DNA of 64,000 bases from Roseivivax sp. GX 12232. Its GTDB lineage: Bacteria; Pseudomonadota; Alphaproteobacteria; Rhodobacterales; Rhodobacteraceae. Made by a program: the position numbers and the translations under genes. Below, in pieces: positions 10,526 through 45,551 of this stretch. The stretch is taken from contig NZ_JAJSEC010000012.1 of NCBI RefSeq assembly GCF_021272185.1, positions 1-64,000 of the forward strand, read 5' to 3'. The notes under the pieces were generated by a model. It saw only the letters and a program-made list of their open reading frames with translations, did not search any database and was not told where the DNA came from. The number at the start of each line of letters is the position of its first letter. Positions within the stretch are counted from its first letter, which is position 1.

Positions 10526-10691
10526 CTTGCGCCCGAATAGCACCGAAGGTGCCGGGCGCGCGCCGGACCGGCCCGATGGGCCGGCGCTCTTGTGGGTGGT
10601 GCGCTTAGATCGTCTCTAGCCCTGACCTTGCTGCCATAAAGCGCCTCGCTCAGAGGTCAGCAGCGCCGGCCCCCGGTCCGCCGCGCGCCCT
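10526..10691 (+). repeat. Structured intergenic repeat, copy A
   Basis: First of six full copies of a ~165-bp element. It begins CTTGCGCCCGAATAG, has a small hairpin GCACC-gaa-GGTGC, then the left GC arm (GGCGCGCGCCGGACCGG). The conserved core is CCTGACCTTGCTGCCATAAA, and the right arm is complementary to the left. This copy has one arm mismatch (GTCCGCC where others have GTCCGGC). It sits between convergent etfA and the DUF6473-like gene. I see no open frame unique to it. Confidence 0.85.
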
Positions 10692-10768
10692 CCTTTGAGA
10701 GGTGGGAGACGGTCTGACCCTCCGGGTTCCACCCAGCATTCTCAAAAACGCTGCAGCCCCGCACACAG

Positions 10769-10790
10769 AAAAGGGCGCCTCGCGGCGCCC
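10769..10790 (-). terminator. Terminator of the DUF6473-like gene
   Basis: Perfect stem GGGCGCC-gcga-GGCGCCC read leftward, followed by TTTT, 24 bp after the stop codon at 10815. Confidence 0.8.
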
Positions 10791-10814
10791 TCCCCGTTCA
10801 GACCTGCCCTCTCC

Positions 10815-11642
10815 TCAGGCCGCCATCGCCATGTCGATCGCGCCCGCCAGCGCCTGGGCGGAGCGGGCGTGGGCGCCGAGGCTGAAGGAGCGCCGTGCCA
10901 GCGGCATCTCGGCGGCGGAGAAGACCATGCCGGCGGTGTCATGCGCCGCGGCGGGTTCGAGCACCTCGATCATCCCGGCCACGCCCGGGGCGAGCGCCTC
11001 GAGCATGGAGCGGGTCACGAAGGCCGGCTCGCAGAGCCCGGCCATGCCCGGACGGGCGCGCTCGGGCGGCGGGGCCTCGGAGAGCCAGAGCAGCCAGACC
11101 GGTGCCGCGATGCGGGCGATGAGCCGCGCCATGCGGCGCGACCACACCGCCTGCAGCTCGGCCTGCACCAGCGCGAACCGCTCGGCATCGGTCTCGATCA
11201 GCTTGGCGATCAGCGCGCCGACGAAGCTGATCAGCGCGAAATCCACCTCGGGGTAGAGCGCGCGCAGCTCCGGCGAGGCGGTCAGGAACCGGTCGTTCCG
11301 GCGCGGATGCACCCGGTAGTAGCGGTTCGAGAGGTTGGCCGCGCCGACGACCTGCAGGACCACGGCCTCGGCCCCGTCGGCGAGGCGCTGCACCTCGGCA
11401 TCCCCGAGATAGAGGTCCAGGCCGGCGTTGATCTGTCCGAGGTTCAGGCAGGGCCGGCCCAGCCGGTCCGAGAGCTGGGCGGCGAAGGGCCGCGCCAGGA
11501 AGCGTCCGAAGGTCTCGGATCCGCCGAGGCAGGCCACATAGCCCCCCGTCAGCGCAGGTTTCGGTCCGCGAAAGGCCACGCGGCTAGTTCCATAATGGCA
11601 CGGCGCATAATCCAGCCCGCACCGAAAAACGGTGTTGTCCAT
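10815..11642 (-). CDS. DUF6473-like family protein
   Basis: About 275 aa. Start ATG 11642 is preferred because GGGGA lies a suitable distance upstream; ATG 11648, two codons earlier, is possible. The N-terminal half has a Rossmann-like pattern with LGGSETFGRF, resembling the first block of an SGNH/GDSL-type fold, followed by NLGQINAGLDLYL. I associate this layout with the DUF6473 family of Rhodobacterales, whose function is unknown. No signal peptide is visible. It is monocistronic, ending at a clear terminator. Family name is from memory and moderately sure; function is not assigned. Confidence 0.7.
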   Translation of the reverse strand: MDNTVFRCGLDYAPCHYGTSRVAFRGPKPALTGGYVACLGGSETFGRFLARPFAAQLSDRLGRPCLNLGQINAGLDLYLGDAEVQRLADGAEAVVLQVVGAANLSNRYYRVHPRRNDRFLTASPELRALYPEVDFALISFVGALIAKLIETDAERFALVQAELQAVWSRRMARLIARIAAPVWLLWLSEAPPPERARPGMAGLCEPAFVTRSMLEALAPGVAGMIEVLEPAAAHDTAGMVFSAAEMPLARRSFSLGAHARSAQALAGAIDMAMAA

Positions 11643-11798
11643 TTTCATCCCCAAAACAAGCTCACCCGGCACCGAGGCTGACCGATTCGCCTTTCCGATC
11701 GGTTAATGCCGGACGGGGCGCGGGAATCCGGGTTGCGCACGCCTTGTGATCCGGTGATGACGGGGCGTATCTTCGCCCGGACAACGGAAAGGCAGGCC

Positions 11799-12674
11799 AT
11801 GGAAATCAAGACCGTCGGCGTCGTCGGCGCGGGACAGATGGGCAACGGCATCGCGCATGTGATGGCGGTGGCCGGCTATGACGTGCTGCTCAACGACATC
11901 AGCGGCGAGGCGCTCGAACAGGCCGTCGCGACGATCACCCGCAACCTCGACCGGCAGGTCAGCCGCGAGAAGATCAGCGCCGAGGACCGCGACGCCGCGC
12001 TGAGCCGCATCGCCACCACCGAGACGCTGACCGACCTCGGCCGCACCGACCTGGTGATCGAGGCCGCGACCGAGCGCGAGGAGATCAAGACCAAGATCTT
12101 CGAGACCCTGGTGCCGGCGCTCGGGCCCGACACGATCCTGACCTCGAACACCTCCTCGATCTCGATCACCCGGCTCGCCAGCCGCACCGACCGGCCCGAG
12201 AAGTTCATGGGCTTCCACTTCATGAACCCGGTGCCGGTGATGAGCCTGGTGGAGCTGATCCGCGGCATCGCCACCGACCGCGAGACCTACGAGGCCTGCC
12301 TCGCCGTGGTCGAGAAGCTGGGCAAGACCGCCGCCTCGGCCGAGGATTTCCCCGCCTTCATCGTGAACCGCATCCTGATGCCGATGATCAACGAGGCGGT
12401 CTACACGCTGCTCGAGGGCGTCGGCAACGTCAGCTCGATCGACGAGGCGATGAAGCTCGGCGCCAACCACCCGATGGGGCCGCTGGCGCTGGCGGATTTC
12501 ATCGGGCTCGACACCTGCCTGGCGATCATGAACGTGCTGCACGACGGGCTGGGCGACAGCAAGTATCGGCCCTGCCCGCTCCTGTCGAAATACGTCGAAG
12601 CCGGCTGGCTTGGCCGCAAGACCCAGCGCGGCTTCTACGACTACCGGGGCGAGACGCCGGTTCCGACCCGCTGA
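11799..12674 (+). CDS. hbd: 3-hydroxybutyryl-CoA dehydrogenase
   Basis: 291 aa, normal length. It oxidises 3-hydroxyacyl-CoA with NAD(P), serving butyrate/polyhydroxybutyrate or fatty-acid metabolism. The N-terminal [14 protein letters not shown] (residues 6-19) is the NAD-binding glycine motif. The segment HFMNPVPVM holds the catalytic His, and Glu of VVEKLGK plus [11 protein letters not shown] follow as in the family. Start ATG 11799 has GGCAGG just upstream. It stands alone between leftward genes, though its reaction may pass electrons on in the same metabolism as the nearby ETF. Confidence 0.95.
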
Positions 12675-12781
12675 GGCGCGGGCCCGGAAGGGCTAGGGCT
12701 CCGGGCTCCGGCCCCAAGCCCCCCACACAAGGCGCACTTGGGCCCGCTCTCCATCCCGGGCCCGCCCCCACGCCAAGCGCG

Positions 12782-13387
12782 CTAGGCCCCGCGCTCCGCC
12801 CCCGGCCCGGCCCCGCGCCAGGCGCGCTGGTCGGGCACATGCAGCGTCAGCGCGCCGCCGAGGCGCAGGCACCCCGGCCGTTCGACCCAGGCGGTGACGC
12901 CGCGCCGGCCCGAGGCCGCCCGGCGGAAGGTCTTGGCCTCCTCGGGGTGGTCCTCGGCGATCTCGCGGGCGGGCAGCTGGCAGGGCCGGTTCTGCATGTC
13001 CACCACCAGCATCCCGCCGTCCTCGAGCTGCAGCCGCGCGGACGGCGGCAGATGCGACAGATCCGGCAGCCCCTCCACCACCAGCGAGGCCCCGAGCCAT
13101 TCGGGATCGAGCGCGTGCAGCCCCATCTCGGCGGCGGTTTCGGCGATCTCCTCGGCGGAAAGGAGCGAGAGCTGGCGGACGTTGCGGATCTCGGTGCCGC
13201 GCGGGTATTGCGCCTTTAGCCGCGAGCAGGAGGGCCGGTTGATGCCGGCATGGGTGTCGCCGGGGATGCCCTCCCAGCCAAGCGCGATCTCTTGCACAGG
13301 CTCCGAGCGGATGCTCCGGGTCTCCGCGGTGACGCGGCCAAGCCAGGTGATGCAGGCGGAAAGCCCGGTGGGCACCAGCGCGGGCAT
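12782..13387 (-). CDS. MOSC domain-containing protein
   Basis: 201 aa. MOSC domains are sulfur-carrier folds related to the C-terminus of molybdenum cofactor sulfurase. The hallmark block QNRPCQLPAREI carries the conserved Cys, preceded by GIPGDTHAG and VRQLSLLS. The last 20 residues (after about 181) are Gly/Ala/Arg-rich and run into low-complexity GC sequence downstream, so the true protein may once have ended earlier. It begins 4 bp after tam and is the last gene of the ftsH-tam-MOSC stretch. Substrate unknown. Confidence 0.88.
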   Translation of the reverse strand: MPALVPTGLSACITWLGRVTAETRSIRSEPVQEIALGWEGIPGDTHAGINRPSCSRLKAQYPRGTEIRNVRQLSLLSAEEIAETAAEMGLHALDPEWLGASLVVEGLPDLSHLPPSARLQLEDGGMLVVDMQNRPCQLPAREIAEDHPEEAKTFRRAASGRRGVTAWVERPGCLRLGGALTLHVPDQRAWRGAGPGAERGA

Positions 13388-13391
13388 GCGC

Positions 13392-14167
13392 CTAGACCTG
13401 CAGGGTGAAGAAGAGCCGCCGGAAGGGAAAGAGCACCGCCCCGTCCGCGGCCTCGGGATAGGCCTTGCCGATGGCGCGTTCGTATTCCGCGATCAGCCGG
13501 TTCTGTTCGTCCGAGGACAGCGCCGCGAGGATCGGCCGGGCAAAGGTCGCCTCGGTGAAGCGCCGCACCGGGTGGCCCTCGGCGTCGGGGGCGAGGTCCT
13601 GGTAATACTCGGTCTCCCAGAGCGTCACCTGCCCCAGCCCGCGCAGGAGCCGTTGGTATTCGGCGGGCAGCATGACGCCCGGCAGGCGGCTGCGGTCGAT
13701 GCGGTTGGGGAAAAGCTCGTCGGCGATCTGCAGCCAGAGCCGGTGCGAGGGCGCGCGGTTCTGGTTCGGCATCTGCACCGCGAGGACGCCGCCCGGGGCC
13801 AGCATGCCCGCGAGCCGCGGCAGGAGCGTGGCGTGGTCGCCCACCCAGTGCAGCGCGGCGTTGGAGAAGATCAGCGCCGGCGGGGTCTCGGCCCGCCAAT
13901 TCGCCAGGTCCAGCTCTTCGGTCGAGGCGTAGGAGCCGGTGCGCTCGGCGTAGTCCAGCATGGCCGGGCTGGTGTCGACGCCGACCAGGCGGCGGCGCAA
14001 CTGCCCGAGGGCCGGGCCGACGGTGCCCGAGCCGCAGCCCAGGTCGATCACGTCGCCCGCGGGCAAGGGCCCGATGGCGCGCAAGAGGTCCAGCGCGGGG
14101 CGGAGACGATGACCCCGGAACCTGTGGTAGGTCCCGGGGTCCCAATCCGCCGTGGTCCGCGTCGGGC

Positions 14168-14171
<4 letters not shown>
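13392..14171 (-). CDS. tam: Trans-aconitate 2-methyltransferase
   Basis: 259 aa. It methylates trans-aconitate, which detoxifies this spontaneous by-product of the citric acid cycle. The SAM motif is [13 protein letters not shown] (about residues 41-53). The family-specific parts are the start [20 protein letters not shown], the block [11 protein letters not shown] and the YQRLLRGLG region. The start codon overlaps the ftsH stop by four bases (ATGA), so it is co-translated from the ftsH message; the link is probably positional only. Confident of the family from these blocks and the length. Confidence 0.93.
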
Positions 14172-16081
<1,910 letters not shown>

Positions 16082-16159
16082 AGGAACATCTCCTGTGAAA
16101 CGTTTGCGCGGCTGTAGCACGGCCGCGCCCCGAGTTACATAAGGTTGTGACCCCGCCGT

Positions 16160-17422
16160 TCAATGCGACAGAAGGAACGCCGGGAGGTCCCGGGTCGGGC
16201 CTTCGAGCCGGCAGGCATGGGCGGGTCCATGGTTGAGAGCGGCGCAGGCGACCAGCCGCTCCTTGTCGAAGATCGCCGGCAGGGCCAATGCGTCGTGAAA
16301 GCGCGGGCCGCCGGCAGGCTTGTCGGTGATCTGCGCCCAGCCGCGCGGGCCGAGCATCCGCACGGTGAGCCCTTCGAGCCCCGCGCCCTCGAGGTGCCAG
16401 CGCCCGTCCCAAAGGCTGCCGTCGCCGACCTCGGCGGTGACGCCTTCCAGCGCGGCGGCCTCGCGCAGGATGCGCAGGGTGTCGTCCTCGACCCGCACCG
16501 CGGCGCCGCCGAGCGTGCCGCCCTTGCCGCCGAGGCAGCCGTCGAGCAGCGCCTCCAGCGCCTCGGCGCGGGGCCGGTAGCCCGCGCCCGCGACATATTG
16601 CAGGGCCCCCGCGAGGAGCCGCATCTGGGTCTCGCGCTCCACCGCGGCAAAGCCGTCGCGGTCGAGCGTGACCTGCCCCCAGGTCTCGGCGCCGATGCGG
16701 TCGGCCACATCCGCCGCCCGGGCCCTGAGCGCCTGGCGCGCCCGGGCCATGCGGGCGGCGGTGGCGTTCAGCCCCTCGGGGCTCAGGCCCTCGGCCTCAA
16801 GCTCGGTGAGCAGCCGGCGCATCCGCACCCGTTCGAAGCGCTGGTCCTCGTTGGACGGATCCTCGGCGAAGGGCACCCGCAGCACCCGCAAGTGAAAGCG
16901 CAGCGTCTCGCGGCGTTCCTGCAGGAGCGGGCGCAGAATGCGCATGCCGCCGCCCTGCCGCGCGGGCGCCATGGCCGAGAGCCCGTCCACGCCCGAACCG
17001 CGCCGCAGCCGCATCAGCAGCGTCTCTGCCTGGTCGTCGGCGGTATGGGCAAACAGCACGTCGCGCATCCGTCCGCGCCACTGGTCGATGAGGCCCAGCC
17101 GGGCGCGGCGGGCGGCGTCCTGCAGGTTGCCCTGGCCGTCCCAGCCGTCCCAGCGCAGGATGTCGTGCTGCCAGCCGAGCTGGCGGCATTCCTCGGCCAC
17201 GAGCCGCGCCTCGTCGGCGGCCTCGGGGCGCAGCCCGTGATCCACGGTGACCACCCGCAGCCCGACGCCCCAGGCGCGGGTCCAGTTGTGCGCCAGGGCC
17301 AGCATGGCCATACTGTCGCCCCCGCCCGACACCGCCAGCCCGATCTCCGCGGGGAAATCCGGGCCGAGAAGCTGCCCCATCGCGGCAGCGAAACGGGCGT
17401 CGAGCGCGGGTGTCTCGGTCAC
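16160..17422 (-). CDS. tilS: tRNA(Ile)-lysidine synthase
   Basis: 420 aa. It adds lysine to C34 of the CAU-anticodon tRNA-Ile so that it reads AUA. The PP-loop ATP-pyrophosphatase signature SGGGDSM is at residues 32-38. HTADDQAETLLMRLRRGSG and PLL are further TilS marks. Start GTG 17422 overlaps the cpoB stop (GTGA), so it is coupled to the Tol-Pal cluster; much longer in-frame upstream extensions run through cpoB and are not real. The gene is essential in most bacteria. Confidence 0.95.
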   Translation of the reverse strand: MTETPALDARFAAAMGQLLGPDFPAEIGLAVSGGGDSMAMLALAHNWTRAWGVGLRVVTVDHGLRPEAADEARLVAEECRQLGWQHDILRWDGWDGQGNLQDAARRARLGLIDQWRGRMRDVLFAHTADDQAETLLMRLRRGSGVDGLSAMAPARQGGGMRILRPLLQERRETLRFHLRVLRVPFAEDPSNEDQRFERVRMRRLLTELEAEGLSPEGLNATAARMARARQALRARAADVADRIGAETWGQVTLDRDGFAAVERETQMRLLAGALQYVAGAGYRPRAEALEALLDGCLGGKGGTLGGAAVRVEDDTLRILREAAALEGVTAEVGDGSLWDGRWHLEGAGLEGLTVRMLGPRGWAQITDKPAGGPRFHDALALPAIFDKERLVACAALNHGPAHACRLEGPTRDLPAFLLSH

Positions 17423-18348
17423 TGGCAGCCGAGCGCGGCGCGTTCCTCGGAGGCGCGGGTCACCGCCTCGGAGCCGGGATAGCGGGTCGAAACCTCGGCC
17501 AGGGTCACGCAGGCCTCCTGGGTGGAGCCGAGCCGCCCGAGCCCGCGGCCCAGCAGGAACAGCGCCTCGGGCGCGGTGCGGGCCTCGGGATAGAGGTTCC
17601 AGGCGTCGAGATAGGCGCGCGAGGCTTCGCGGGTGTCGCCCATCTCCTCGAGCGCGCGGCCCCGGCCCAGCAGCGCCGCGCTGTCGAGCGGCCCGCCGGG
17701 ATAGGTCTGGCGGAAGTCGGCGAAGGCCTGGGCCGCGCCCTGCCAGTCGCCCTCTTCGAGCTGCGCCTGGGCGGCGCGGAAGTCGGCCTCCTCGGCGGCG
17801 GCGAGCTGGGCGCCGCCGGTCACCGGCAGGCCGCCGTCGCCCGCGCCCTGCCCGGCCTCGCCGCCGGCGCTGTCGGACGGCCCGGCCTCGATGTCCTCGG
17901 GTGTGGCGGTGCCGTCGGTGGGCACGCCGCTGAGGCCGCCCGAATCCGAACCCGCCCCGCCGGTCGCGGGCGCGGTGCCGCCCAGGGGCGGGGTGTCCCC
18001 GAGCGCGCCGATGTCGCAGCCCTCTTCCAGCTCGCAAAGCCGGAACTGCAGATCGCCGATCCGGTTCGAGCCGTCCGAGACCACCCGGTCGATGCGGTTG
18101 GTCAGCTCTTCGGTGCGCGAGGTCAGCCGCTGCAGCTCGGCCTCGATGGCGTTCACCCGGTCGATGGTGCCGCCGCCGACCTGCACGTCCGAACCGGAGG
18201 TCGTCGAGAGCTCGCGCTTGAGCTTCTGCAGCTCGACCGTGAGCACCTGGATGTCCTGGCGGATGTCGGCCAGCGTGTCGGCGCCCTGCGCCTGGCCGGC
18301 AATGGGCGCGGCCAGGAGGGCGAGGGAAAGCAGCGTCGCGCGGATCAT
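17419..18348 (-). CDS. cpoB: Tol-Pal associated protein CpoB (YbgF)
   Basis: 309 aa periplasmic coordinator of outer-membrane constriction and peptidoglycan synthesis. A signal peptide (residues 1-20, ending QAQG) is followed by a coiled-coil segment (about 25-90) and a Gly/Pro-rich linker of about 70 residues. The C-terminus has three TPR repeats (from about 185, starting ADFRAAQAQLEEGDW). It begins 4 bp after pal and its stop overlaps the tilS start, fixing its place at the end of the tol-pal operon. The linker is longer than in E. coli YbgF (about 263 aa). Confidence 0.94.
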   Translation of the reverse strand: MIRATLLSLALLAAPIAGQAQGADTLADIRQDIQVLTVELQKLKRELSTTSGSDVQVGGGTIDRVNAIEAELQRLTSRTEELTNRIDRVVSDGSNRIGDLQFRLCELEEGCDIGALGDTPPLGGTAPATGGAGSDSGGLSGVPTDGTATPEDIEAGPSDSAGGEAGQGAGDGGLPVTGGAQLAAAEEADFRAAQAQLEEGDWQGAAQAFADFRQTYPGGPLDSAALLGRGRALEEMGDTREASRAYLDAWNLYPEARTAPEALFLLGRGLGRLGSTQEACVTLAEVSTRYPGSEAVTRASEERAALGCQ

Positions 18349-18352
18349 CGGA

Positions 18353-20382: not shown

Positions 20383-21624
20383 TTACCGCAGCCTCATGCC
20401 GGAGGGGTCGAAGACCATCTCGATCTCGCGCCACTGGGCGTATTTCTCGACCGGCAGCGGGAAGCCGTCGCCCTGGCAGCGCAGGATCGCGCGGCGGGCG
20501 GCCTGGAAGGCGGTCTGCGCGGCCTGGCCGTCGCCGCCCGAGGCCTCGATCATGCGCAGCGAGTCGCTGACCACGCGGCCGCTTTCCTCCATGCGCATGC
20601 CGACGACCACGGTGACATTGGCGGCCTGGCTGCCGACGTCGACGACCCAGCATTGCTGCACGGCGACGCGCAGGGCGTCCTTCTCGCCGCCGGTGAGCGG
20701 CGGGCCGGTGGGCAGCGCGGGGTCGGGATCGGTGGTGCCGCCGCCGAGCGCCTCGGCCAGGGCATCCTCGACGCCCGAGGGGCTGGAGGTCTCGGGCTCC
20801 GGGGCGGGTTCGGGCTCCGGCGCGGGTTCGGGTTCGGGCTCCGGCTCGGGGGCCGGTTCCGGCTCCGGTTCGGGTGCGGGCTGCGGGTCCGGCTGCGGCT
20901 CGGGCTCGGGCGCGGGATCGGCCTCGGCCGTCTCGACCTCGGGCTCGGGCTCGCTGACCGGCGCGGGCCGGTTCGGACGGGTGCGCGGCCGCATCGAGGC
21001 ATCGGGGGCGCGGGCGGGCTCCTCGGCCTCGGTCACGATCTCGGTCGAGGCCGCCTCGGGGGCGGTGGCCTCGCGCGCCTCGCTCTCCGAGGTCTCGGGC
21101 GCCTCGGCGTCCGGCGCGACGCTCTCCTGCGCCTCCTCGGCGATGGTGGTGTCGGGCTCGGGCGGGGCCACGGGCTCGGGCGCGACGCGCGGCGCGGGGT
21201 CCGGCGTCGGGGTCTCGGCGATCTCGGGGGCCGGCGTCTCGGGCGCCGGCGGGGTCATCTCGGGCGCGCCGTCGCTGACCTCGGCCTCGGGCGCGGGCGG
21301 CTCGGGGACGGGCGCGGGCGCCGTCTCGGGCGCGGGCTCGGGGGCCGGCGCGGGCTCGGGGCGCGACTGCGGGCTCGGCGCACGCTCGGGCGCGGGGCTC
21401 GGCGGCGGGGCCTCTCCGGTCTCGGGCGCGGGCGGCGCGGCGACGTCCTCGGCCGCCTCGGGCGGCTGCGAAGGCCGGCTCAGCGCGGCGAAATCCTCTT
21501 CGGAGAGGACCGCGACGTCCTGGAAGCGCACCGGGTCCGGGTTCGGCCGGAAGACCCCGCCGAACAGCACCCAGAGCACCAAAGCCAGATGCGCCGTACC
21601 CGAGATGACCTGACCCGTGTTCAC
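20383..21624 (-). CDS. tolA: TolA-type energy transducer
   Basis: 413 aa. One N-terminal transmembrane helix (about residues 6-24) is followed by a very long Pro/Glu/Ala linker (about 50-300, with PEPEPAPEP runs). The compact C-terminal domain carries [17 protein letters not shown] and [12 protein letters not shown], with the two cysteines seen in TolA/TonB-like domain III. The classic TolA Ala/Lys helix is replaced by this acidic Pro-rich spacer, as in other alphaproteobacteria. It lies between tolR (10 bp away) and tolB, which supports the identity despite weak linker similarity. Confidence 0.92.
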
Positions 21625-24200: not shown

Positions 24201-24364
24201 CTTGCGCCCGAATAGCACCGAAGGTGCCGGGCGCGCGCCGGACCGGCCCCTTGGGCCGGCGCTCTTGTGGGTGGTGCGCCTACATCGTCGCTAGCCCTGA
24301 CCTTGTAAGGATAAAGCGCATCGCTGAGAGGTCAGCAGCGCCGGCCCCCGGTCCGGCGCGCGCC
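24201..24364 (+). repeat. Structured intergenic repeat, copy B
   Basis: Full-length copy with intact complementary arms (GGCGCGCGCCGGACCGG and its reverse complement at the other end), the small hairpin GCACC-gaa-GGTGC and core CTGACCTTG-AAGGATAAA. An inner pair CTGACCT/AGGTCAG could extend the stem. It lies between ruvB and the hypothetical gene in an otherwise tight leftward cluster. Confidence 0.88.
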
Positions 24365-24369
24365 CGCGC

Positions 24370-24550
24370 TGATCCGTTGCGTCAGGAGCGCCCTCACCGC
24401 TGCGTGGCATTGCCCGAGGTGGTTCTGGCTGCTGCGTTGCGCTGGTAGCACCTTCGCCGCTGTGTAGCATTGCGAGAGGGGGACCTGGCTGCTGCGTTGC
24501 ACGAGGGGTGGTCTCTCGTTGCTCTGTTGCGCCAAGGGGCCGTCGTCGTT
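24370..24550. repeat. Degenerate ~30-bp tandem array beside copy B
   Basis: About six decayed units of 28-32 bp, each starting near GCGTTGC or GTGGCATTGC and ending in a GCTGCT-like end. Alternate units match better, giving a 60-bp period (ATTGCCCGAGG at 24410 versus ATTGCGAGAGG at 24470). Both strands stay partly open only because of the period. No evidence of coding. Confidence 0.7.
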
Positions 24551-34838: not shown

Positions 34839-35003
34839 GGGCGCGCGCCGGACCGGGGGCCGGCGCTGCCGACCTCTGAGTAAAGCGCTTTATGGCAGCA
34901 AGGTCAGGGCTAGGGGTGATTTCTGCGCTTCGCCCACAAGAGCGCCGGCCCAAGGGGCCGGTCCGGCGCGCGCCCGGCATCTTCGATGCTATTCGGGCGC
35001 AAG
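34839..35003 (-). repeat. Structured intergenic repeat, copy C
   Basis: Full-length copy in reverse orientation. Its small terminal hairpin reads GCATC-gaa-GATGC, differing from copies A and B on both stem sides. Core CCTGACCTTGCTGCCATAAA is unchanged. It lies between the ABC ATPase and hemE, followed directly by a tandem array. Confidence 0.87.
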
Positions 35004-35272: not shown

Positions 35273-35294
35273 AACCCCGGCCGCCCAAGCCCCC

Positions 35295-37387: not shown

Positions 37388-37687
37388 GGCGATTGGTGGG
37401 GTGAGGCCTCGGGTTGGGTGAGGCGCCTGCCGGAGGCGAGTCTTCGGGGGCGGTGAGCCGGCTGGCGGGGTCACCCCTCTGTCGGCCTGAGGTCTGATAC
37501 CGGTGGGTCCGTCCGGGTCGCCTTGCGGCAGTGAGCGCATCAGCCCGGCGGTTTGCACTGGTCCCAACGGACGTCCTATGCCGCCCGGACACGTCCCTGA
37601 GCATCGGATCGTGCCCTCCAACGCAGACCACCCCGCACAGCCCACTGTCCCGAAGCGCCCACGCCCTCACAACCTCTCGCAACAAAG

Positions 37688-37851
37688 GGCGCGCGCCGGA
37701 CCGGGGGCCGGCGCTGCCGACCTCTGAGCTGCGCACTTTATCCCAGCAAGGTCAGGACTAGCGGCGATCTTTGCACACCATTCACAGGAGCGCCGGCCCA
37801 AGGGGCCGGTCCGGCGCGCGCCCGGCATCTTCGATGCTATTCGGGCGCAAG
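37688..37851 (-). repeat. Structured intergenic repeat, copy D
   Basis: Full-length reverse-orientation copy with hairpin GCATC-gaa-GATGC and core CCTGACCTTGCTGGGATAAA. The outer arms are intact. It lies in the 769-bp gap between convergent hemC and the DUF4198 gene, where I see no gene; the rest of the gap is GC-rich sequence without clear structure apart from fragment D'. Confidence 0.87.
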
Positions 37852-37938: not shown

Positions 37939-37973
37939 CGCGCCCGGCATCTGCGATGCTATTCGGGCGCAAA
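37939..37973 (-). repeat. Partial copy of the repeat (D')
   Basis: Only the hairpin end of the element: TTTGCGCCCGAATAGC then GCATC-gca-GATGC and the first bases of the arm. It lies 88 bp from copy D in the same orientation, so it may be a local duplication remnant. Its loop differs (gca). Confidence 0.8.
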
Positions 37974-38156
37974 GAGGGCGTGAGTTTTGAAGTTTCGGGA
38001 AGACCTCTGGCGTCGCGTGGATTTGGCGTTCCACGGCAACAGTCTGCTTTCGGTGAAGGACCGATTCTAGCAGGCGCACATCGACCTTCTCGGCAAGATC
38101 AATGGCACCTGCGTGCCAAGCAATCCGCCCTCACAAGCGACACCAGCCAACCTTCC

Positions 38157-38963
38157 TCACCCCGGCACCCTAAATGTCAGCGACGCCCAAAGGCTCTCCC
38201 AAGCTGGGTCCTCGGGGCCCGAGACTTCCAGCTCCCCGATCACCACCGCGTCGGCGAGATAGGCGTGGCCGGGGCGCACCGGCAGGACCGCGCGGCCCTC
38301 GGCGTCGGTCTCGACGAACTGCACCTCGACCGTCCCGTCCGGGGCGCGCGCGAACAGCTCGATCTGCGCCCCCTCGCGCGGCGCGCCTTCATAGAGCACC
38401 CGCACCGGCAGGCCCTCGGAGAGATCGTCGGTATAGGGGTTCGCCTCGGCCACGATCTCGGTCCGCAGCCCCACCTCGCGGTCCGCCCCCGCGCCGGAGC
38501 CGACGGCGACCAGCGACTTGGCGTAGCGGGTGTAGCGCTCACGGATGTTGCCGCGGTCGAGCCCGCGCTCGACGAAGCGCGACAGCGCCCAATCCGCATC
38601 CTTGTGGACCACGAAGGAGGCGAAGGTCTGGAAGTTCTCATAGGTCAGATCGTAGTCGCGGGTCTGATGCACGATCACCGCGAGGCCCTCCTCCGGGGCG
38701 GGCATCTGCAGCGCCGGGCGGTCGCCGGGGCGGCCCGGCACCTCGTAGACCTCCTCTCCCATGACCAGCTCGAAGCGGGTGATGTTGGGCGGCAGATAGG
38801 CGTAGCCGGGGCCTTCGAAAGCCTCTCCGACGCGGATGCTGGCGCGGATCTCGCCGCCCGCGGGCACCTGCCAGGGGTCGGGGTCGATCCAGAACTCATG
38901 CGCGGCCACGGGCAGGGCCGAGGCGAGCGCAAGGCAGAACGCGGTCAGGGTCTGGCGGATCAT
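38157..38963 (-). CDS. DUF4198 domain-containing periplasmic protein
   Basis: 268 aa. A 21-residue signal peptide ends in PVAAH; the mature protein starts HEFWIDPDPWQV, the usual opening of DUF4198 proteins. An ATG-start GKF-like beta-sandwich is followed by a C-terminal Ig-like domain (from about 190, VRVLYEGAPREGAQIELFARA). Many family members sit beside TonB receptors or nickel/cobalt uptake systems and resemble NikK/NikM periplasmic parts; no transporter is adjacent here. Confidence 0.85.
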   Translation of the reverse strand: MIRQTLTAFCLALASALPVAAHEFWIDPDPWQVPAGGEIRASIRVGEAFEGPGYAYLPPNITRFELVMGEEVYEVPGRPGDRPALQMPAPEEGLAVIVHQTRDYDLTYENFQTFASFVVHKDADWALSRFVERGLDRGNIRERYTRYAKSLVAVGSGAGADREVGLRTEIVAEANPYTDDLSEGLPVRVLYEGAPREGAQIELFARAPDGTVEVQFVETDAEGRAVLPVRPGHAYLADAVVIGELEVSGPEDPAWESLWASLTFRVPG

Positions 38964-39043
38964 CGGCGCCTCCGGGGGTCGGACTCAACAGAACTGACGA
39001 AAGAGCCTAGCGCAGAACCGCCCCACCGCCATCACCCGGTCCA

Positions 39044-39508
39044 TCACGTCCGCTTCAGCCGCGCCTCGAGGTCCGAGGCCGCCTGCGCCACCCGGGTCTT
39101 GAACTTCCGGTCGAGCCGCCCCTTGGCGAGCTTCATCGACTGCAGGATCAGCCGCGCGGAAAGCGTCTTGGCGCTGAGATGCGCGTCGATACTGACCCGC
39201 GTGCGGGTCCGCGCCAGCGCCACGCATTCCACGATGGTACGGATCTCGAGCCCGCCCGAGACCGCGTCGAAGACCATAAGCGTCGGCGGCTCGTGGCGGC
39301 TCAGCGTCACATCGGCCTCGCGCGCCTTGCCGCGGTAGCGGAAGCCGGCGCGCCAGCTCGCGCCCTCGCCCGCCGCGCCGCCGCCGTCGGTGCGGGTGAT
39401 CTCGACCCCGCGGCGCATGATCTGGCGCTCGATGGCGGGGAAATCCGACAGCGCCCCGAAGACCGCGTCGAGCGGCGCCTCGATGTCTTCCGTGCGTGAA
39501 AACTGCAT
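39044..39508 (-). CDS. SRPBCC family protein
   Basis: 154 aa START/Bet v1-like fold. QFSRTEDIEAPLDAVFGALSD is the polyketide-cyclase type opening; the long C-terminal helix (ILQSMKLAKGRLDRKF) would line the cavity. Such proteins bind hydrophobic ligands. It ends 80 bp from the DUF4198 gene and lies 45 bp after nudC on the same strand, possibly the same operon. Ligand unknown. Confidence 0.85.
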   Translation of the reverse strand: MQFSRTEDIEAPLDAVFGALSDFPAIERQIMRRGVEITRTDGGGAAGEGASWRAGFRYRGKAREADVTLSRHEPPTLMVFDAVSGGLEIRTIVECVALARTRTRVSIDAHLSAKTLSARLILQSMKLAKGRLDRKFKTRVAQAASDLEARLKRT

Positions 39509-39553
39509 GTCTGCTCCGTCTCTGCGCCACCCCTTCGGCGGGCGGCCTTGGTC

Positions 39554-40516
39554 TCAGTCCAGCCTGTCCGCAAGCCAGTTCGTCAGCATGAAATGCGCAA
39601 TTGCCCCGCGCCGCGCCGGCAGAAGCCCCGTCGCTTCGCCCGAGAGCGTGGCCAGGATGCGCTCCTTGGTGACCCATTGCGCGGCCTCGATCTCGTTGGG
39701 ATCGAGGGTGATCTCGCTCGAGCGCGCCTCGGCGTGGCAGCCGATCATCAGCGAGTTCGGAAAGGCCCAGGGCTGGCTCGCGAGGTAGCGCACCGGGCCG
39801 ACCGCCACGCCGGTCTCTTCCTGCACCTCGCGGCGCACCGCGGCCTCCACCGTCTCGCCGGGTTCGAGAAAGCCCGCGAGGCAGGAATACATGCCCTTGG
39901 GCCAGCCCGGCGACCGCCCCAGAAGCGTGTAGGGCCCCTTGGTCACCAGCATGATGACCACCGGGTCGGTGCGCGGGAAATGCCGCCCGCCGCAGGCGGG
40001 GCAGAGCCGCTGCCAGCCGGCCTCGGCCAGGGCGCTCTCGGTGCCGCAGCGCGAACAGAAGCGGTGCGAGGCATGCCAGCCGAGGACCGCCTTGGCGGTG
40101 GCGGCCAGTTCGGCCTCGAAGGGGGTGAGCCAGGTCATCACCCGGCGCAGCTCGACGAAGCGCCCCTCGGGGCAGGCGGGATGCACCTGTTCGGTGGGAT
40201 CGGCGAAACGCTGAAGCGCGTCCGCGTCGAGCCCCTCGGGCTCCCAGCCCGAGAGCTCCAGCGCGAAGCGCGGCGCGCCGCCCGCGCGGCCCAGGAAGAT
40301 CCGCTCGCCGGTCTCGGCCAAAAGCGGATGGTCCATGGGCAGCTGCACCAGCCGCGCGGGGTTTCCTTGCGAGATCAGCACCTTGCCGCGCCAGAGCAGG
40401 GTCGCACATGCCGCGGGGTCCCGCGCCAGCGCCGCCTGCGCCTCGGCGTCGCCGCGCAGCTCGGCGGCGCGGTCGAAGCCGGCCCCGCCGAAGGTCACCT
40501 CTTCCGCATGTCTCAT
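39554..40516 (-). CDS. nudC: NAD+ diphosphatase / RNA deNADding enzyme
   Basis: 320 aa. It hydrolyses NAD(H) and removes NAD caps from RNA. Zinc ligands Cys154, Cys157, Cys172 and Cys175 (CSRCG...CPACG). Nudix box from Gly215 (GFLEPGETVEAAVRREVQEE). The SQPWAFPNS motif that separates NudC from other Nudix enzymes is present at about 248. Intact and full length. Confidence 0.96.
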   Translation of the reverse strand: MRHAEEVTFGGAGFDRAAELRGDAEAQAALARDPAACATLLWRGKVLISQGNPARLVQLPMDHPLLAETGERIFLGRAGGAPRFALELSGWEPEGLDADALQRFADPTEQVHPACPEGRFVELRRVMTWLTPFEAELAATAKAVLGWHASHRFCSRCGTESALAEAGWQRLCPACGGRHFPRTDPVVIMLVTKGPYTLLGRSPGWPKGMYSCLAGFLEPGETVEAAVRREVQEETGVAVGPVRYLASQPWAFPNSLMIGCHAEARSSEITLDPNEIEAAQWVTKERILATLSGEATGLLPARRGAIAHFMLTNWLADRLD

Positions 40517-40645
40517 CGCCCCTCCCGCGCCAATGGCGCAACGCCCCAGGGTTGCATTTTACCCAGCGCATAATGCAACCTATGGTTGATTTTTGCTACG
40601 CCGCGCCCTAGTCTCCTGCATCGCAGATCACACAAGGGGACCGGC

Positions 40646-42448
40646 GTGACGGGTGCAAGCGCCAAAAGCCTCCACGAGTCCGACCGTGTGGCTTCCTTGC
40701 GTCTTCTCGCCATCACCGATCTGCACGCGCGGCTCCTGCCCTATGACCACGACAGCGACAGCCCGCGCCCGGGCAGCGGGCTGGCCTGCCTGGCGGGCAC
40801 CATCGCGCGGGCCCGGCGCGAGGTCTCGGCCTCGCTGCTCTTCGACAACGGCGACACCTACCAGGGCGACGCCCTGGGCGAGATCCTCGCCCGCGACATG
40901 ATGCGCGCCGAGGCGCAGGGGCTGCTGGCCCATCCGGTGGCCGCGGCGCTCGGGGCGCTGGGGCTCGACGCGGCGGTGCCGGGCAACCACGACTTCGACT
41001 TCGGGCTCGACACCCTGCGGGCCATCGCCAGAAGCGCGCCCTTCCCTTTCGTGTTGACCAACCTCGTGGCGGCGCGGGGCGAAGGACCGCTCGCCGACCG
41101 CCCGCTCCTGCCCCCTGCGGTGATGCTCGACCGGAGCCTCACGCTCGAGACCGGCGAGGTGCGGCCGATCCGCATCGGGGTCCTGGGACTGGTGCCGCCC
41201 GGCACGCCGGCGCGCGACCCCGCGGATCCGGTCGCCCGGGCCGAAGGCCGCGACCTTCTCGCCACGGTCGAGGCCTGGGCACCCTACCTGCGCGGGGCGG
41301 GCGCGGACCTCGTGGTCTCGCTCTGCCATTCGGGGCTCGGGCCGATGCATCCGCGCCCGGGGCTCGAGGATGCCGCACTCCTGGTCGCGGGCCACCCGCA
41401 GGTCGACGCGGTGATCGCCGGGCACCGCCACGAGCGCCACGCCCGCCCTGCCGCGGGCGGACGCGCGCCGCTGGTCGCTCCTGCCGCCCATGGCCGCGAG
41501 CTGGGCGTCATCGACCTGCGGCTCGCGCCGCGTCCGGGCGGCGGCTGGCGGCTGGCCGAAAGCGCGGTGGACCTGCGCCCCGCCGATGCCGCGCCGGGCT
41601 TCGAGGCCCGCCCCGTGGCGCGCATCGCCGCCCCCGCCCATGCCCGCGCCCGGGCGCTGCTTTCCGAGGTGATCGGCGAAAGCGCGGTGGCGCTGCAGAC
41701 CTATCTCGCGCGGGTCCGGCCGCTGGCGGCGACCTCCCTCATCGCCGAGGCACAGGCCGCCTATGCCCGCACCGAGATCGGCGGCGGCGGGCTGCCGCTT
41801 CTCTCTGCAGCCGCCCCCTTCAAGGCCGGCGGGGCCGAGGGCGGCGAGGGGTTCACCCATGTGCCCGCCGGGCCCATCGCGCTGCGGCACGTGCATGACC
41901 TTTACCCCTATGCCAACCGGGTGAGCCTGCGCTGCCTGAGCGGTGCCGAGGTCCGCGACTGGCTCGAACGCGCCGCGGTCGTCTTCCGCCCGCTGGGGCC
42001 CGGGGCGCGTGATGCGCCGCTCCTGGAGCCGGGCTCGGCGGGCTACGACTTCGACCTGATCCACGGGCTGCGGTTTTCGATCGACCTCGCGGCGCCCGCC
42101 GGGGAGAGGATCCGCGGGCTGGCCCTGCCCTGCGGGACGCCCATCGCGCCCGGGGCGCGGCTGCATCTCGTGACCAACAGCTTCCGCGCCGGGGCCGAGG
42201 ACGGCTTTCCCTCGGGCGCGCCGGTCCTCGAGGGCGGGCCGCTGGTGCGCGACATCCTCGCCGATTTCATCCGCCAGCGCGGGCGGCTGGGCCCGAAGCT
42301 TGCCGCGCCGGGGGGCTGGTCCTTCGCGCCGCTGCCCGGGGCCTCGGCGGTGTTTCCGGTGCCCGAGGCCGCCCGGCCTTTCGTGGAGGCGGAGGGGCTG
42401 GAGTGGGTTGGTGGTTCGGATGGGGGGCTGGGGCGGTTGCGGTTGTGA
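40646..42448 (+). CDS. 5'-nucleotidase / cyclic phosphodiesterase family enzyme
   Basis: 600 aa. Start GTG 40646 has AAGGGGA upstream. N-terminal metallophosphatase: DLHARLLPY, then NGDTYQGD, GNHDFDFG and GHRHERH bind two metals. The C-terminal 5_nucleotid_C domain (from about 355) carries the aromatic substrate clamp region LYPYANRVSLR. Closest in plan to CpdB-type 2',3'-cyclic nucleotide phosphodiesterase/3'-nucleotidases. No signal peptide is evident, which is odd since CpdB is periplasmic; either export is lost or the start is misplaced. Confidence 0.85.
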   Translation: MTGASAKSLHESDRVASLRLLAITDLHARLLPYDHDSDSPRPGSGLACLAGTIARARREVSASLLFDNGDTYQGDALGEILARDMMRAEAQGLLAHPVAAALGALGLDAAVPGNHDFDFGLDTLRAIARSAPFPFVLTNLVAARGEGPLADRPLLPPAVMLDRSLTLETGEVRPIRIGVLGLVPPGTPARDPADPVARAEGRDLLATVEAWAPYLRGAGADLVVSLCHSGLGPMHPRPGLEDAALLVAGHPQVDAVIAGHRHERHARPAAGGRAPLVAPAAHGRELGVIDLRLAPRPGGGWRLAESAVDLRPADAAPGFEARPVARIAAPAHARARALLSEVIGESAVALQTYLARVRPLAATSLIAEAQAAYARTEIGGGGLPLLSAAAPFKAGGAEGGEGFTHVPAGPIALRHVHDLYPYANRVSLRCLSGAEVRDWLERAAVVFRPLGPGARDAPLLEPGSAGYDFDLIHGLRFSIDLAAPAGERIRGLALPCGTPIAPGARLHLVTNSFRAGAEDGFPSGAPVLEGGPLVRDILADFIRQRGRLGPKLAAPGGWSFAPLPGASAVFPVPEAARPFVEAEGLEWVGGSDGGLGRLRL

Positions 42449-42476
42449 GGATTGGGGGTGGCTGGTGTGGGTGGAT

Positions 42477-42643
42477 TTGCGCCCGAACAGCACCGAAGGT
42501 GCCGGGCGCGCGCCGGACCGGCCCCTTGGGCCGGCGCTCCTTGGGGTGGCGCGCCTAGTTGGTCGTTAGTCCTGACCTTGTGGGGATAAAGCGCGCAGCT
42601 AAAAGGGCAGCAGCGCCGGCCCCCCGGTCCGGCGCGCGCCCTC
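42477..42643 (+). repeat. Structured intergenic repeat, copy E
   Basis: Full-length copy. Starts TTGCGCCCGAACAGC (variant), hairpin GCACC-gaa-GGTGC, core CCTGACCTTGTGGGGATAAA, complete complementary arms. It begins 28 bp after the nucleotidase stop and ends 140 bp before the SRP RNA gene. Confidence 0.87.
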
Positions 42644-42781
42644 TGGCGGGATTCGACCGGACGTGGGGATTTGCGGCGCGGGGGCCGACATGCGCCAATC
42701 ACGAACGGCGGAACATCATCCGCACCTCCCTCACCTCACCCCGAGGGTTGCGAATCCGTGCGGTGACGCCTATTTCGGCCT

Positions 42782-42877
42782 TGAGAGGTTGGCGCGGGCA
42801 GGCGCCTCGCCAACCCGGTCAGGTCCGGAAGGAAGCAGCCGTAACGAGCCCCGCTTGGGTCGCGTTCAGCCTCTCAC
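42782..42877 (+). ncRNA. ffs: Signal recognition particle 4.5S RNA
   Basis: About 96 nt. It contains the SRP domain-IV signature CAGGTCCGGAAGGAAGCAGC, with the GGAA tetraloop and asymmetric loop that bind Ffh. Outer ends pair (GAGAGG at 42783 with CCTCTC at 42870), giving the single long hairpin of small bacterial SRP RNA. The exact termini are estimated from this stem. Confidence 0.93.
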
Positions 42878-43022
42878 CTTATCCCTTCAGTGCAGATGTT
42901 TTGATGCGATGGTCCAGTTGGGGCCGTCGAGGGTGCTTTGGCGCCTTTGCAAAGGCAAAGTGCGCGTTCCCCGCAAAACCCATTTATTCCAAAACCTTGG
43001 CGTAAGGCGACGCCCCGCCCCC

Positions 43023-43532
43023 TCAACTATGCCGCAAAAACGGCACCGGCTCCGGCCGCGCGGCCAGGGCCCAGCGCATCTGGGCCTCGGTCTCGATGGC
43101 GCAGGGGCGCACGGCGCGCAGGCGGGGCAGCGCCTCGTCGGGGGCCTCACCCATCTCGATCATCAGCCGCAGCGCCGCCATGCCCGAACGCCCGCAGCCC
43201 GCGCGGCAGTGCACCAGCACCCGGCCGCCCCCCAGAAGCGCCTTGCGCGCGAACCCCGAGACCGCGACCCAGCGGGTGTCGAAGGCGGTGTCGGGCGCGC
43301 CGCCGTCCTCGATCTCGATCTGGTCCCAGCGGGTGCCGCGCTGCTGCATGTCGGCGCCGAAACTCTCGGCCCCGGCCATGTAAAGCTCAAGCCGGGTGAC
43401 CAGCGACAGAACCAGCGCCGGGCGCCAGTGCCTCAGATGCTCGAGATCGCCCGCGTAATCGCCCGAAGCCCCGGGCATGGGCGCGATGCCGAGGATGCCG
43501 CTGCCGACCGCGAGGGCGTGGATCACATGCAT
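43023..43532 (-). CDS. Protein tyrosine phosphatase family protein
   Basis: 169 aa dual-specificity-like phosphatase. Start ATG 43532 has GGGAGG; the frame runs to 43709 but upstream residues are Arg-rich and unlikely. P-loop [12 protein letters not shown] with His108, Cys109, Arg115. The FDTRWVAVSG segment precedes it. It is the only gene between the SRP RNA and pheA. Substrate unknown; small PTPs of this kind are frequent in alphaproteobacteria. Confidence 0.88.
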   Translation of the reverse strand: MHVIHALAVGSGILGIAPMPGASGDYAGDLEHLRHWRPALVLSLVTRLELYMAGAESFGADMQQRGTRWDQIEIEDGGAPDTAFDTRWVAVSGFARKALLGGGRVLVHCRAGCGRSGMAALRLMIEMGEAPDEALPRLRAVRPCAIETEAQMRWALAARPEPVPFLRHS

Positions 43533-43743
43533 GAGGCTGCCTCCCGCACGGGCCTCACGCCCGCGCAAAGGCACCGGGCGCCGCGCGGGCCGCAGCCCGC
43601 GCCGCTCGTCTGCTTGGAGCCGCCTGGGTCCATGCCTCCTCCTTGCAAAGACCGCCTGTCGCGGGATCATACAGGCTTTGCATCGGGAGATAAGGCAATT
43701 CTGCTGCAAGGCGAGGCGCTTGCGGGACGCCCGCGCCCCGGGG

Positions 43744-44583
43744 TCAGGGCCGCCGGGCGTCGCGGGGATAGGTGCCGAGGATGGTTAGCTCCTCGGTGAA
43801 ATAGGCCAGCTCCTCGAGCGCGCGGGCGACGGCGGGATCCTCGGGGTGGCCCTCGATGTCGGCGTAGAACTGGCTCGCCTCGAAGGAGCCGCCGACCATG
43901 TAGCTCTCGAGCTTGGTCATGTTGACGCCATTGGTCGCGAAGCCCCCCATTGCCTTGTAGAGCGCCGCGGGAATGTTGCGGGTCTGGAAGACGAAGGTGG
44001 TCAGCATGCCGTGATCGCCGCGCCGGGTCAGGTCGGCCTCGGGGCTCATCACCAGGAAGCGGGTGGTGTTGTTGCCTTCGTCCTCGATGTGGCGGGCCAG
44101 GACGTCGAGCCCGTAGATCTCGGCGGCCAGCTCGCCCGCCAGCGCGCCGCGCGACCGCACGCCGGCCTCGGCGATGGCCCGGGCCGAGCCCGCGGTGTCC
44201 GCCCCCGTCACCCGCCGGATGCCGTTGTCGCGCAGGAAATTGCGGCACTGCCCCAGAAGCACCGTGTGGCTCTGGGCCTCGGCGATGTCGGCGATGGTGG
44301 TGCCCGGCACGCCCAGAAGGTTGATGTGCACCCGCACGAAGGCCTCGCCGATGATCTTCAGCTCGGAGCCCGGCAGGAGCGAATGGATGTCGGCCACCCG
44401 GCCGTAGGTGGAGTTCTCCACCGGCAGCATCGCGAGCTCGGCCTGGCCGGTCTTCACCGCCTCGATCGCATCCTCGAAGGTGCGGCAGGCCAGGGCCTCG
44501 TGGTCGGGCCGCGCGCTGCGGCAGGCTTCGTGCGAATAGGCACCGGGTTCGCCCTGGAAGGCGATGCGTTTCTGACTGGCCAT
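43744..44583 (-). CDS. pheA: Prephenate dehydratase
   Basis: 279 aa monofunctional enzyme of phenylalanine synthesis; no chorismate mutase domain is attached. Start ATG 44583 (ASQKRIAFQGEPGAYSHEA follows). The catalytic block is NNTTRFLVM and LPVENSTYGRVAD is the PDT signature. A C-terminal ACT domain (about 195-270, FVFQTRNIPAALYKAMGGF, ESYM) should give feedback control by phenylalanine. Divergent from the cytochrome c gene across 118 bp. Confidence 0.96.
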   Translation of the reverse strand: MASQKRIAFQGEPGAYSHEACRSARPDHEALACRTFEDAIEAVKTGQAELAMLPVENSTYGRVADIHSLLPGSELKIIGEAFVRVHINLLGVPGTTIADIAEAQSHTVLLGQCRNFLRDNGIRRVTGADTAGSARAIAEAGVRSRGALAGELAAEIYGLDVLARHIEDEGNNTTRFLVMSPEADLTRRGDHGMLTTFVFQTRNIPAALYKAMGGFATNGVNMTKLESYMVGGSFEASQFYADIEGHPEDPAVARALEELAYFTEELTILGTYPRDARRP

Positions 44584-44701
44584 GAAAAGTCTCTGGAACT
44601 GGTCTCTCGAGGGGGCGTTTCGTCGCGGTGAGTATACCTTGCCTCTCCGAATTGGAACCAATAGAACCCGCTGAAACTCAGGACACGACGGACCGGACTC
44701 C

Positions 44702-45253
44702 ATGTTTGACACGATGACCTTCACCAAGATCATTGGTGGCTTCTGCGGCGCTTTGCTTGTCTTCCTGCTGGGCGGCTGGGCCGCCGAGAGTCTCTTCCAC
44801 GTCGGCGGGACGCATAGCGCCGAACACGGAGAGGGTCACGGCGAAGAGGGCGAACAGGTCGCCACCGGCTTCCCCATCGAGGTTGCCGAGGAAGACGGCG
44901 CCGCCGAAGAGGAAGAAGAGGTGGACTTCGCCTCGCTTTGGGAAAACGCCGACGCCGGCGCCGGCGAGCGCGTCTTCAGCCAGTGCCGCGCCTGCCACCA
45001 GCTCGAGGAAGGCGCCAATGCGGTTGGCCCCTATCTCTACGGCGTGGTCGACCGCGACATCGGGTCGGCGGAAGGCTTCAACTACTCCGGTGCGCTCTCC
45101 GAGGCGGGCGACGTCTGGACCCCGGAGAACCTCTTCAACTTCCTCGAGAACCCGCGCGGCTGGGCGCCGGGCACCTCGATGTCCTACAGCGGCCTGTCGG
45201 ACCCCGAGGACCGGGTGAACCTGATCGCCTACCTCGATCAGACCGACAGCTGA
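44702..45253 (+). CDS. Membrane-anchored cytochrome c
   Basis: 183 aa. An uncleaved N-terminal helix (about 9-28) precedes a His/Glu-rich acidic linker (about 38-75) and a class I cytochrome c domain. Haem motif Cys95-RA-Cys98-His99; distal ligand Met160 in GTSMSYSG. This is the CycM/cytochrome c-y layout, which carries electrons from the bc1 complex to the oxidase. Followed by two terminators, so monocistronic. Confidence 0.93.
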   Translation: MFDTMTFTKIIGGFCGALLVFLLGGWAAESLFHVGGTHSAEHGEGHGEEGEQVATGFPIEVAEEDGAAEEEEEVDFASLWENADAGAGERVFSQCRACHQLEEGANAVGPYLYGVVDRDIGSAEGFNYSGALSEAGDVWTPENLFNFLENPRGWAPGTSMSYSGLSDPEDRVNLIAYLDQTDS

Positions 45254-45261
45254 GGCGCGGG

Positions 45262-45282
45262 GGCCCCGGCGCGGGGCCTTTT
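45262..45282 (+). terminator. First terminator of the cytochrome c gene
   Basis: Stem GGCCCCG/CGGGGCC followed by TTTT, 9 bp after the stop. Confidence 0.8.
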
Positions 45283-45294
45283 GCGACGGATCGG

Positions 45295-45329
45295 AAAGGC
45301 GCGGGCCCGGTTGGGTGCCGCGCCTTTTT
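45295..45329 (+). terminator. Second terminator of the cytochrome c gene
   Basis: 10-bp stem AAAGGCGCGG/CCGCGCCTTT with a 13-base loop, followed by TTTTT. Backs up the first terminator 13 bp earlier. Confidence 0.88.
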
Positions 45330-45384
45330 GTTTGGGGCGGGGTGCTGCAAATAACGGCGCCCCGTCTGCCTCCCCTCACCACCA

Positions 45385-45551
45385 CTTGCGCCCGAATAGC
45401 GCCGCAGGCGCCGGGCGCGCGCCGGACCGGCCCCTTGGGCCGGCGCTCTTGTGGGCGAAGCGCATAGCCAATCGCTAGTCCTGACCTTGCTGCCATAAAG
45501 CGCCTAGCCCGGAGCTAAGCAGCGCCGGCCCCCGGTCCGGCGCGCGCCCTC
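45385..45551 (+). repeat. Structured intergenic repeat, copy F
   Basis: Full-length copy. Its small hairpin is GCGCC-gca-GGCGC, a third stem sequence, again self-complementary. Core CCTGACCTTGCTGCCATAAA and outer arms are intact; the inner AGGTCAG arm is changed (GGAGCTAAGC). It lies between the cytochrome terminators and yejA; no gene is seen in the 496-bp gap. Confidence 0.87.

Follow-up and report, generated by a model that had tools for sequence, protein, structure and literature searches.

An apparently uncatalogued structured intergenic repeat of Roseivivax and other Rhodobacterales, REPIN-like in layout but with no RAYT transposase detected in the genus

REPINs and bacterial interspersed mosaic elements (BIMEs) are doublets of repetitive extragenic palindromic (REP) sequences that form hairpins and measure about 71-110 bp (Bertels and Rainey, 2011, PMC3116915). 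The repeat described here was found in a 64,000-nucleotide stretch of Roseivivax sp. GX 12232 (contig NZ_JAJSEC010000012.1, positions 1 to 64,000; hereafter the window). The element resembles REPINs and BIMEs in being an inverted palindromic doublet with a spacer that can form one long or two side-by-side hairpins, in its hundreds of extragenic copies, and in its solo remnants and tandem clusters. It differs from REPINs in that no REP-associated tyrosine transposase (RAYT) was found, there is no GT[AG]G at its ends, it is 165 bp long rather than about 71-110 bp, its spacer contains a conserved core, it carries an extra 5' hairpin, it is common to many genera, and no near-identical copies exist among 129 compared. 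Thus, the layout is REPIN-like but, since neither a RAYT nor a guide at the end was found, the element falls outside the RAYT-dependent class as defined. The ends of IS200/IS605 and derived elements (Quentin, 2018, PMC6006769) similarly contain subterminal hairpins and lean to one replication strand, but the present element comes from a genus without a detected Y1 transposase and lacks GT[AG]G, the sole tetranucleotide tried, at the hairpin foot. Like miniature inverted-repeat transposable elements (MITEs) of DDE transposons, the element is short, non-coding, flanked by inverted arms and present in many copies; unlike in MITEs, the arms are not terminal, and neither a target duplication nor a subfamily structure was detected. 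The ERIC and YPAL sequences of enterobacteria are long imperfect intergenic palindromes of 127-168 bp that are foldable as RNA, insert at TA and have no known enzyme of their own. Compared by description rather than by sequence, they match the element in size, intergenic location, foldability and the lack of a known enzyme, but belong to a different lineage, and no counterpart of the TA was seen.

The core of the element, CCTGACCTTG-N5-ATAAAG, searched with up to two mismatches in the GX 12232 genome (4,120,283 bases in 38 contigs), yielded 225 matches (118 forward, 107 reverse) against none for the reversed control, which excludes a chance origin. Among the 144 matches in 1.66 Mb of this genome that were read directly, 129 are full copies, and the 15 partial ones were left out of the 129-copy set; because the core pattern is present in 125 of these full copies, the genome is extrapolated to contain about 230 full copies of 165 bases each, that is, close to 1% of its length. 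The spacing is about one copy per 15-18 kb, with the density taken from contigs C1 and C22 and the whole-genome pattern count, since the stretches of contigs C33, C12 and C3 were picked for holding copies. Beyond this genome, a covariance model (E <= 1e-4) matches 84 of 198 family genomes, one per genus and GX 12232 included, or 76 of the 174 good assemblies; these counts are lower bounds because stricter filters were applied and 14 candidates were scored per genome. We hold, with about as much doubt as confidence, that the family is an old, selected, RAYT-independent hairpin repeat, the top strand of which acts single-stranded and the copies of which are rewritten in place by recombination. 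Under this explanation, the element would be an old non-coding interspersed repeat of Rhodobacterales, REPIN-like in its inverted GC-rich arms, with the hairpin P0 and a conserved loop core, and its top strand would act while single-stranded. The copies would spread, and would be rewritten in place, either through annealing of strands or gene conversion at replication forks or through the action of some trans-acting recombinase. Selection on the fold would maintain each copy, plausibly in the role of a 3'-end structure for the neighbouring transcripts.

On the top strand, the 5' hairpin P0 (GCGCCCGAATA-GCACC-GAA-GGTGC) comes first. Next are arm B (18 bases), a small hairpin loop and arm C; the core CCTGACCTTG-N5-ATAAAGCGC then lies between two variable stretches, the second of which leads to C' and B', and a G-rich tail (TCTGKTG..GAGAGGGG) carries the conservation about 25 bases past the right end. 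Arm B can pair either with its neighbour or with the far end, which allows the element to form side-by-side hairpins or one long stem; the fold of copy 1 scores z = -5.3 as DNA and z = -3.0 as RNA with flanks. The six full copies and one left-end fragment reported in a sequence-only reading of the window are all present, with all positions in agreement within one base (37687, not 37688, for copy 4), and the core with ATAAA that it called invariant occurs in 6 of 6 window copies. One correction is that the copy at 42477 lacks the leading C and has GAACAG instead of GAATAG. The ungapped identity to copy 1 is 92, 77 and 86% for the remaining three plus-strand copies. The copies, each with a core span from CTTGCG to GCGCCC, and the parts of copy 1 are as follows.

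10526-10690, plus strand: full copy 1
24201-24365, plus strand: full copy 2
34839-35003, minus strand: full copy 3
37687-37851, minus strand: full copy 4
37939-37973, minus strand: solo left end, consisting of just the P0 module, located upstream of copy 4 and sharing its orientation
42477-42641, plus strand: full copy 5, left end TTGCGCCCGAACAG
45385-45549, plus strand: full copy 6, P0 = GCGCC GCA GGCGC
10540-10552, plus strand: helix P0 of copy 1 (GCACC GAA GGTGC), preceded by GCGCCCGAATA, the GCGCCC of which could also pair with GGGCGC
10554-10571, plus strand: helix B 5' arm of copy 1, 18 positions, 17 of which pair with 10673-10690; compensatory pairs between species
10580-10588, plus strand: helix C 5' arm of copy 1, GCCGGCGCT, 9 of 9 pairing with 10662-10670
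10621-10644, plus strand: conserved core of copy 1, the terminal GCGC of which can pair with upstream GTGCGC as helix P3
10662-10670, plus strand: helix C 3' arm of copy 1
10673-10690, plus strand: helix B 3' arm of copy 1, with one mismatch

Covariation modelling, which the sequence-only reading had proposed as a check, reveals compensatory change between species in the helices. In an alignment of 29 copies from four genus genomes (6 from GX 12232, 14 from G006, 4 from G005 and 5 from G007), 94.3% of the pairs are standard, 11 of 34 pairs are changed on both sides, and 37 cells are doubly changed compared to 8.4 in shuffles and 2-7 for slid partners. P0 is Watson-Crick in 643 of 645 cells among the copies of the GX 12232 genome, with C-G/T-A covariation. 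The inner pairing CTGACCT/AGGTCAG fares less well: it is Watson-Crick in 81% of the cells (734/902) in the same genome but, judged by eye, is not retained in related species, and is the weakest part of the fold as first proposed; the conserved helices are P0, B and C. Paired positions are also constrained within the species, where changes are depleted in paired relative to unpaired columns, 6.8-fold for C-to-T (99/5029 vs 328/2450) and 5.8-fold for G-to-A (74/5030 vs 186/2192). Wobble pairs are asymmetric on the top strand in helices I and P3 taken jointly (149 G.T vs 18 A.C) and in hairpin A (6 vs 0), and at the alignment pair 85-126, 16 of the 29 copies have U-G and the other 13 have C-G. 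Unpaired columns, too, lean to C-to-T (13.4%) over G-to-A (8.5%), and the wobble excess is carried by few alleles. The asymmetry suggests that the top strand is the acting one, though not firmly as RNA. An extra small hairpin is present at about the same place in arm B of unrelated copies (L161:45-246, L172:5420-5620 and Pseudosulfitobacter L305:13523-13680).

The intergenic placement seen in the window is general, as none of the 129 sampled copies, the window's six included, extends more than 20 bases into a predicted gene (gene calls are from a purpose-written codon-model script and start sites are rough). One copy is not located between two predicted genes and was excluded from the gap counts; of the other 128, 47 are in convergent, 65 in tandem and 16 in divergent gaps, which corresponds to 0.79, 0.55 and 0.27 copies per kb, respectively. 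Of 191 convergent gaps, 40 carry a copy. Copies in tandem gaps show no common orientation relative to the genes (30 same, 35 opposite), no reading frame is open in more than 61 of the 129 copies, and the flank profile contains no T-run after the stem that would indicate an intrinsic terminator. All 27 close pairs of copies are in the same orientation, and short derivatives exist that have lost the interior between the arms. Copy-specific pairing of left with right flanks was considered and rejected, real partners being no better than swapped ones. A tandem array of three solo left ends (P0 modules) with a period of about 73 bases is found directly upstream of a full copy at C1:90716-90907, and the spacer that separates several of the tandem copies looks, by eye, like a separate repeat of about 130 bases (C1 near 485k, 551k and 759k; C22 near 288k and 340k).

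The variation among the copies differs from that of recently transposed repeats. The stems are almost constant and the loops diverge fast. The variable sites are largely block alleles of adjacent bases, and P0 covaries as a stem. Eight of ten pairs of loop sites are not detectably linked across the 129 copies, the median identity of 3000 random copy pairs is 86%, and no pair exceeds 94.5% identity. Recent transposition predicts near-identical copies and linked subfamily marks, and the absence of both indicates that the growth pattern is not one of recent transposition. Differences at fixed places are seen in plasmids of P. pseudonitzschiae, where strains SM26-46 and SC1-105 (L294/L300) have, at the same spot, different copies in opposite orientation between flanks that are 99.3% and 94.2% alike. 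In three further slots common to two P. pseudonitzschiae plasmids, the elements are 88%, 78% and 83% alike, that is, no closer than paralogues; three of the six flanks are 90-94% identical, and the other three (58-70%) reach breaks or inserts. In two of these slots, P0 differs by fully paired block changes (GGCTC/GAGCC vs GGTGC/GCACC; GGTGC/GCACC vs GGCAC/GTGCC), while the 5' arm with its hairpin shows no difference, a single base distinguishes the 3' arms, and the core differs at no or few positions; the third slot is more divergent and its P0 is changed too. Also, one convergent gap measures 199 bases and contains a copy in Salipiger sp. CCB-MM3; in two Alloyangia pacifica plasmids, the same gap consists of 24 bases and has no copy. 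Conservation of positions between species was rejected, because the common slots (L174 and L175, by eye) are too few against the background of 40/191, and one of them seems to be oppositely oriented.

A search for a mover gave negative results. The Y1_Tnp domain (PF01797) was detected in none of the 9 genus genomes but in 5 of 14 control genomes, including E. coli and Caulobacter; among the 198 family genomes, it is present in 18, with no clear association with the element (10 of 84 with vs 8 of 114 without; Fisher p 0.32), so that 74 of the 84 element-bearing genomes have no detected Y1_Tnp. A reverse transcriptase (PF00078) was not found in the GX 12232 genome, nor in the three genus genomes that have no copies by DNA search. 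At the hairpin foot, GT[AG]G is found on the left in 1 of 129 copies and outside the right end, on the other strand, in 4 of 129; it is present internally, just past the 5' arm of helix C, in 61 of 129 copies, which is not at an end. An offset scan of the 129 copies for target duplications gave weak scattered excesses only (the largest being 8 copies vs 1.7 expected), and none was seen by eye at the near-empty Salipiger/Alloyangia site. No longer, autonomous version was noticed among the 144 matches, in which no systematic search for one was made; the inverted arms are present, with P0 outside them. Whether this is a known REP or MITE family, a doubt raised in the sequence-only reading, thus receives a divided answer: the layout is REPIN-like, but a RAYT, a terminal GT[AG]G and a target duplication were not found.

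The copies appear to lean to one replication strand. When orientation is compared with the sign of the local GC skew, computed with the elements masked, 70 of 102 clusters agree (1.1e-4 in a one-sided binomial test), or 95 of 129 single copies, compared to 130 of 233 in a comparison set of every third gene on contig C1; copies in convergent gaps of C1 and the window agree in 17 of 22 cases. Given this lean, the proposed single-stranded step would take place, perhaps, on the lagging-strand template.

Of the other explanations, the most serious, although clearly less probable than the one we prefer, is that the element is a functional RNA, transcribed in 3' ends or as a small RNA, with a fold selected for stability, processing or protein binding and with spread being secondary. 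The G.T excess in the inner helices and hairpin A, the U-G state of pair 85-126, the constraint on paired columns and the low density in divergent gaps all fit such an RNA, but the wobble counts stem from a few block alleles rather than independent events, the unpaired columns lean likewise, the outer helices P0, B and C show equal numbers of G.T and A.C (21 and 21), copies in tandem gaps are in either orientation relative to the genes, and the flank profile lacks a T-run after the stem. We consider it rather improbable that the slots are actively rewritten cassettes, with a fork-linked system that copies loops from one slot to another and inverts entire copies but leaves the stems and the core as they are. 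If that were true, the genome would hold some 230 reassorting variants without an HUH transposase or a reverse transcriptase, and the element would represent a new kind of self-homogenising, loop-diversifying repeat.

An attC-like recombination site for gene exchange, with genes gained and lost beside the element, is unlikely. When two P. pseudonitzschiae plasmids are aligned and only pieces longer than 400 bp are considered, 10 breaks are counted by eye; 6 of them, among which are the two ends of a large inversion, are no more than about 200 bp away from a copy. In addition, relBE, hipA and one hypothetical gene differ beside copies. However, in two of these six cases what changes is the element itself, the break positions are not constant, what delimits the relBE insert is instead a duplicated gene end, and homologous recombination between repeats gives the same pattern. 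Lower still do we rate a chromosome-polarity site, in which a protein would read oriented elements along the replichore, as FtsK reads the polar sequences KOPS, or would fold the nucleoid. The agreement with GC skew and the supply of about one copy per 15-18 kb would suit this role, but close tandem pairs, the presence of copies on plasmids and the failure to find the element in 114 of the 198 genomes do not, and known polar motifs show a stronger lean. Finally, a genuine REPIN of the Pseudomonas type, mobilised in trans by a RAYT (Y1 HUH transposase), is strongly disfavoured: the inverted palindromic doublet with two alternative folds, the hundreds of intergenic copies, the strand lean and the solo left ends as possible remnants would all be expected of it, but the distribution of Y1_Tnp and the near absence of GT[AG]G at the left foot argue against it.

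Several observations weigh against an old, RAYT-independent hairpin repeat rewritten by recombination. The analysis identified no mobilising enzyme and revealed no clean insertion with defined ends, and slot replacement is known from plasmids of one species. Reverse transcriptase is present in 4 of the 9 genus genomes, all four with copies (G004, G005, G006 and G007), so that an RNA route may have operated in the past. Linkage is seen for two of the ten pairs of loop sites (p 0.003 and 0.010), and for sites with many alleles the power is low. The strand lean was seen before it was tested, and the test was one-sided; the window's own copies disagree with it (2 of 6 match the GC-skew sign), and in a second genome (G216, 88 copies) 20 scattered 20-kb skew samples were too irregular to support or contradict it. 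Long-term gene conversion alone, without a selective benefit, could keep the stems alike.

Some further features were noted in the window and on the plasmids. The bacterial small SRP RNA (RF00169) is encoded at 42782-42879 on the plus strand, about 140 bases downstream of copy 5, and is the only Rfam match in the window at the gathering threshold. Directly to the right of copy 2 (24368-24487) are two 60-base tandem units that are 73% alike, and a low-complexity repeat family with spacings that are multiples of 6 bases is located within a predicted gene (20758-21457). Gene clusters encoding CHAT, caspase family and trypsin-like or serine proteases on P. pseudonitzschiae plasmids (L304 and L306) may represent a defence system.

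The search of the genome and its relatives, also proposed in the sequence-only reading, shows that copies are abundant outside the window. They are present in 6 of the 9 genus genomes, GX 12232 included (DNA or profile search); three near-complete genomes have 28, 88 and 21 model matches and, among the matches listed, most cover the whole covariance model. Membership of the sampled genomes in Rhodobacterales is taken from named relatives. The named carriers are plasmids of Salipiger, Pacificitalea, Sulfitobacter and Pseudosulfitobacter; phage and plasmid records gave no match to a window copy, and the plasmid matches were obtained only with copies of two other genera. In four regions viewed in these carriers, no annotated gene lies over the element, and three of the four copies are between convergent genes, the plasmid gene tables used being incomplete. 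The matches listed include one Burkholderia record. A pattern search with 16 fixed bases in wider contigs was discarded, as it returned chance matches from unrelated phyla. No Rfam family matches the element at gathering or relaxed thresholds, the only matches being microRNA-like chance ones far below threshold, which supports the initial impression of an undescribed structured intergenic family, and the matches listed for the open PMC subset include no paper on such an element in Rhodobacterales.

Thus, the element is apparently uncatalogued: real, widespread and structured, it is a variant of interspersed palindromic repeats with an unusual evolution, and a large one, with matches in 84 of the 198 genera sampled from a group of marine and soil bacteria that has been much studied. 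Alignment A3 yields a covariance model that can be used for annotating it. The element marks places of difference between sister strains. In other bacteria, palindromic repeats are explained by the RAYT transposase, and this one is a natural case in which to test how such repeats can last and evolve when that enzyme is missing.

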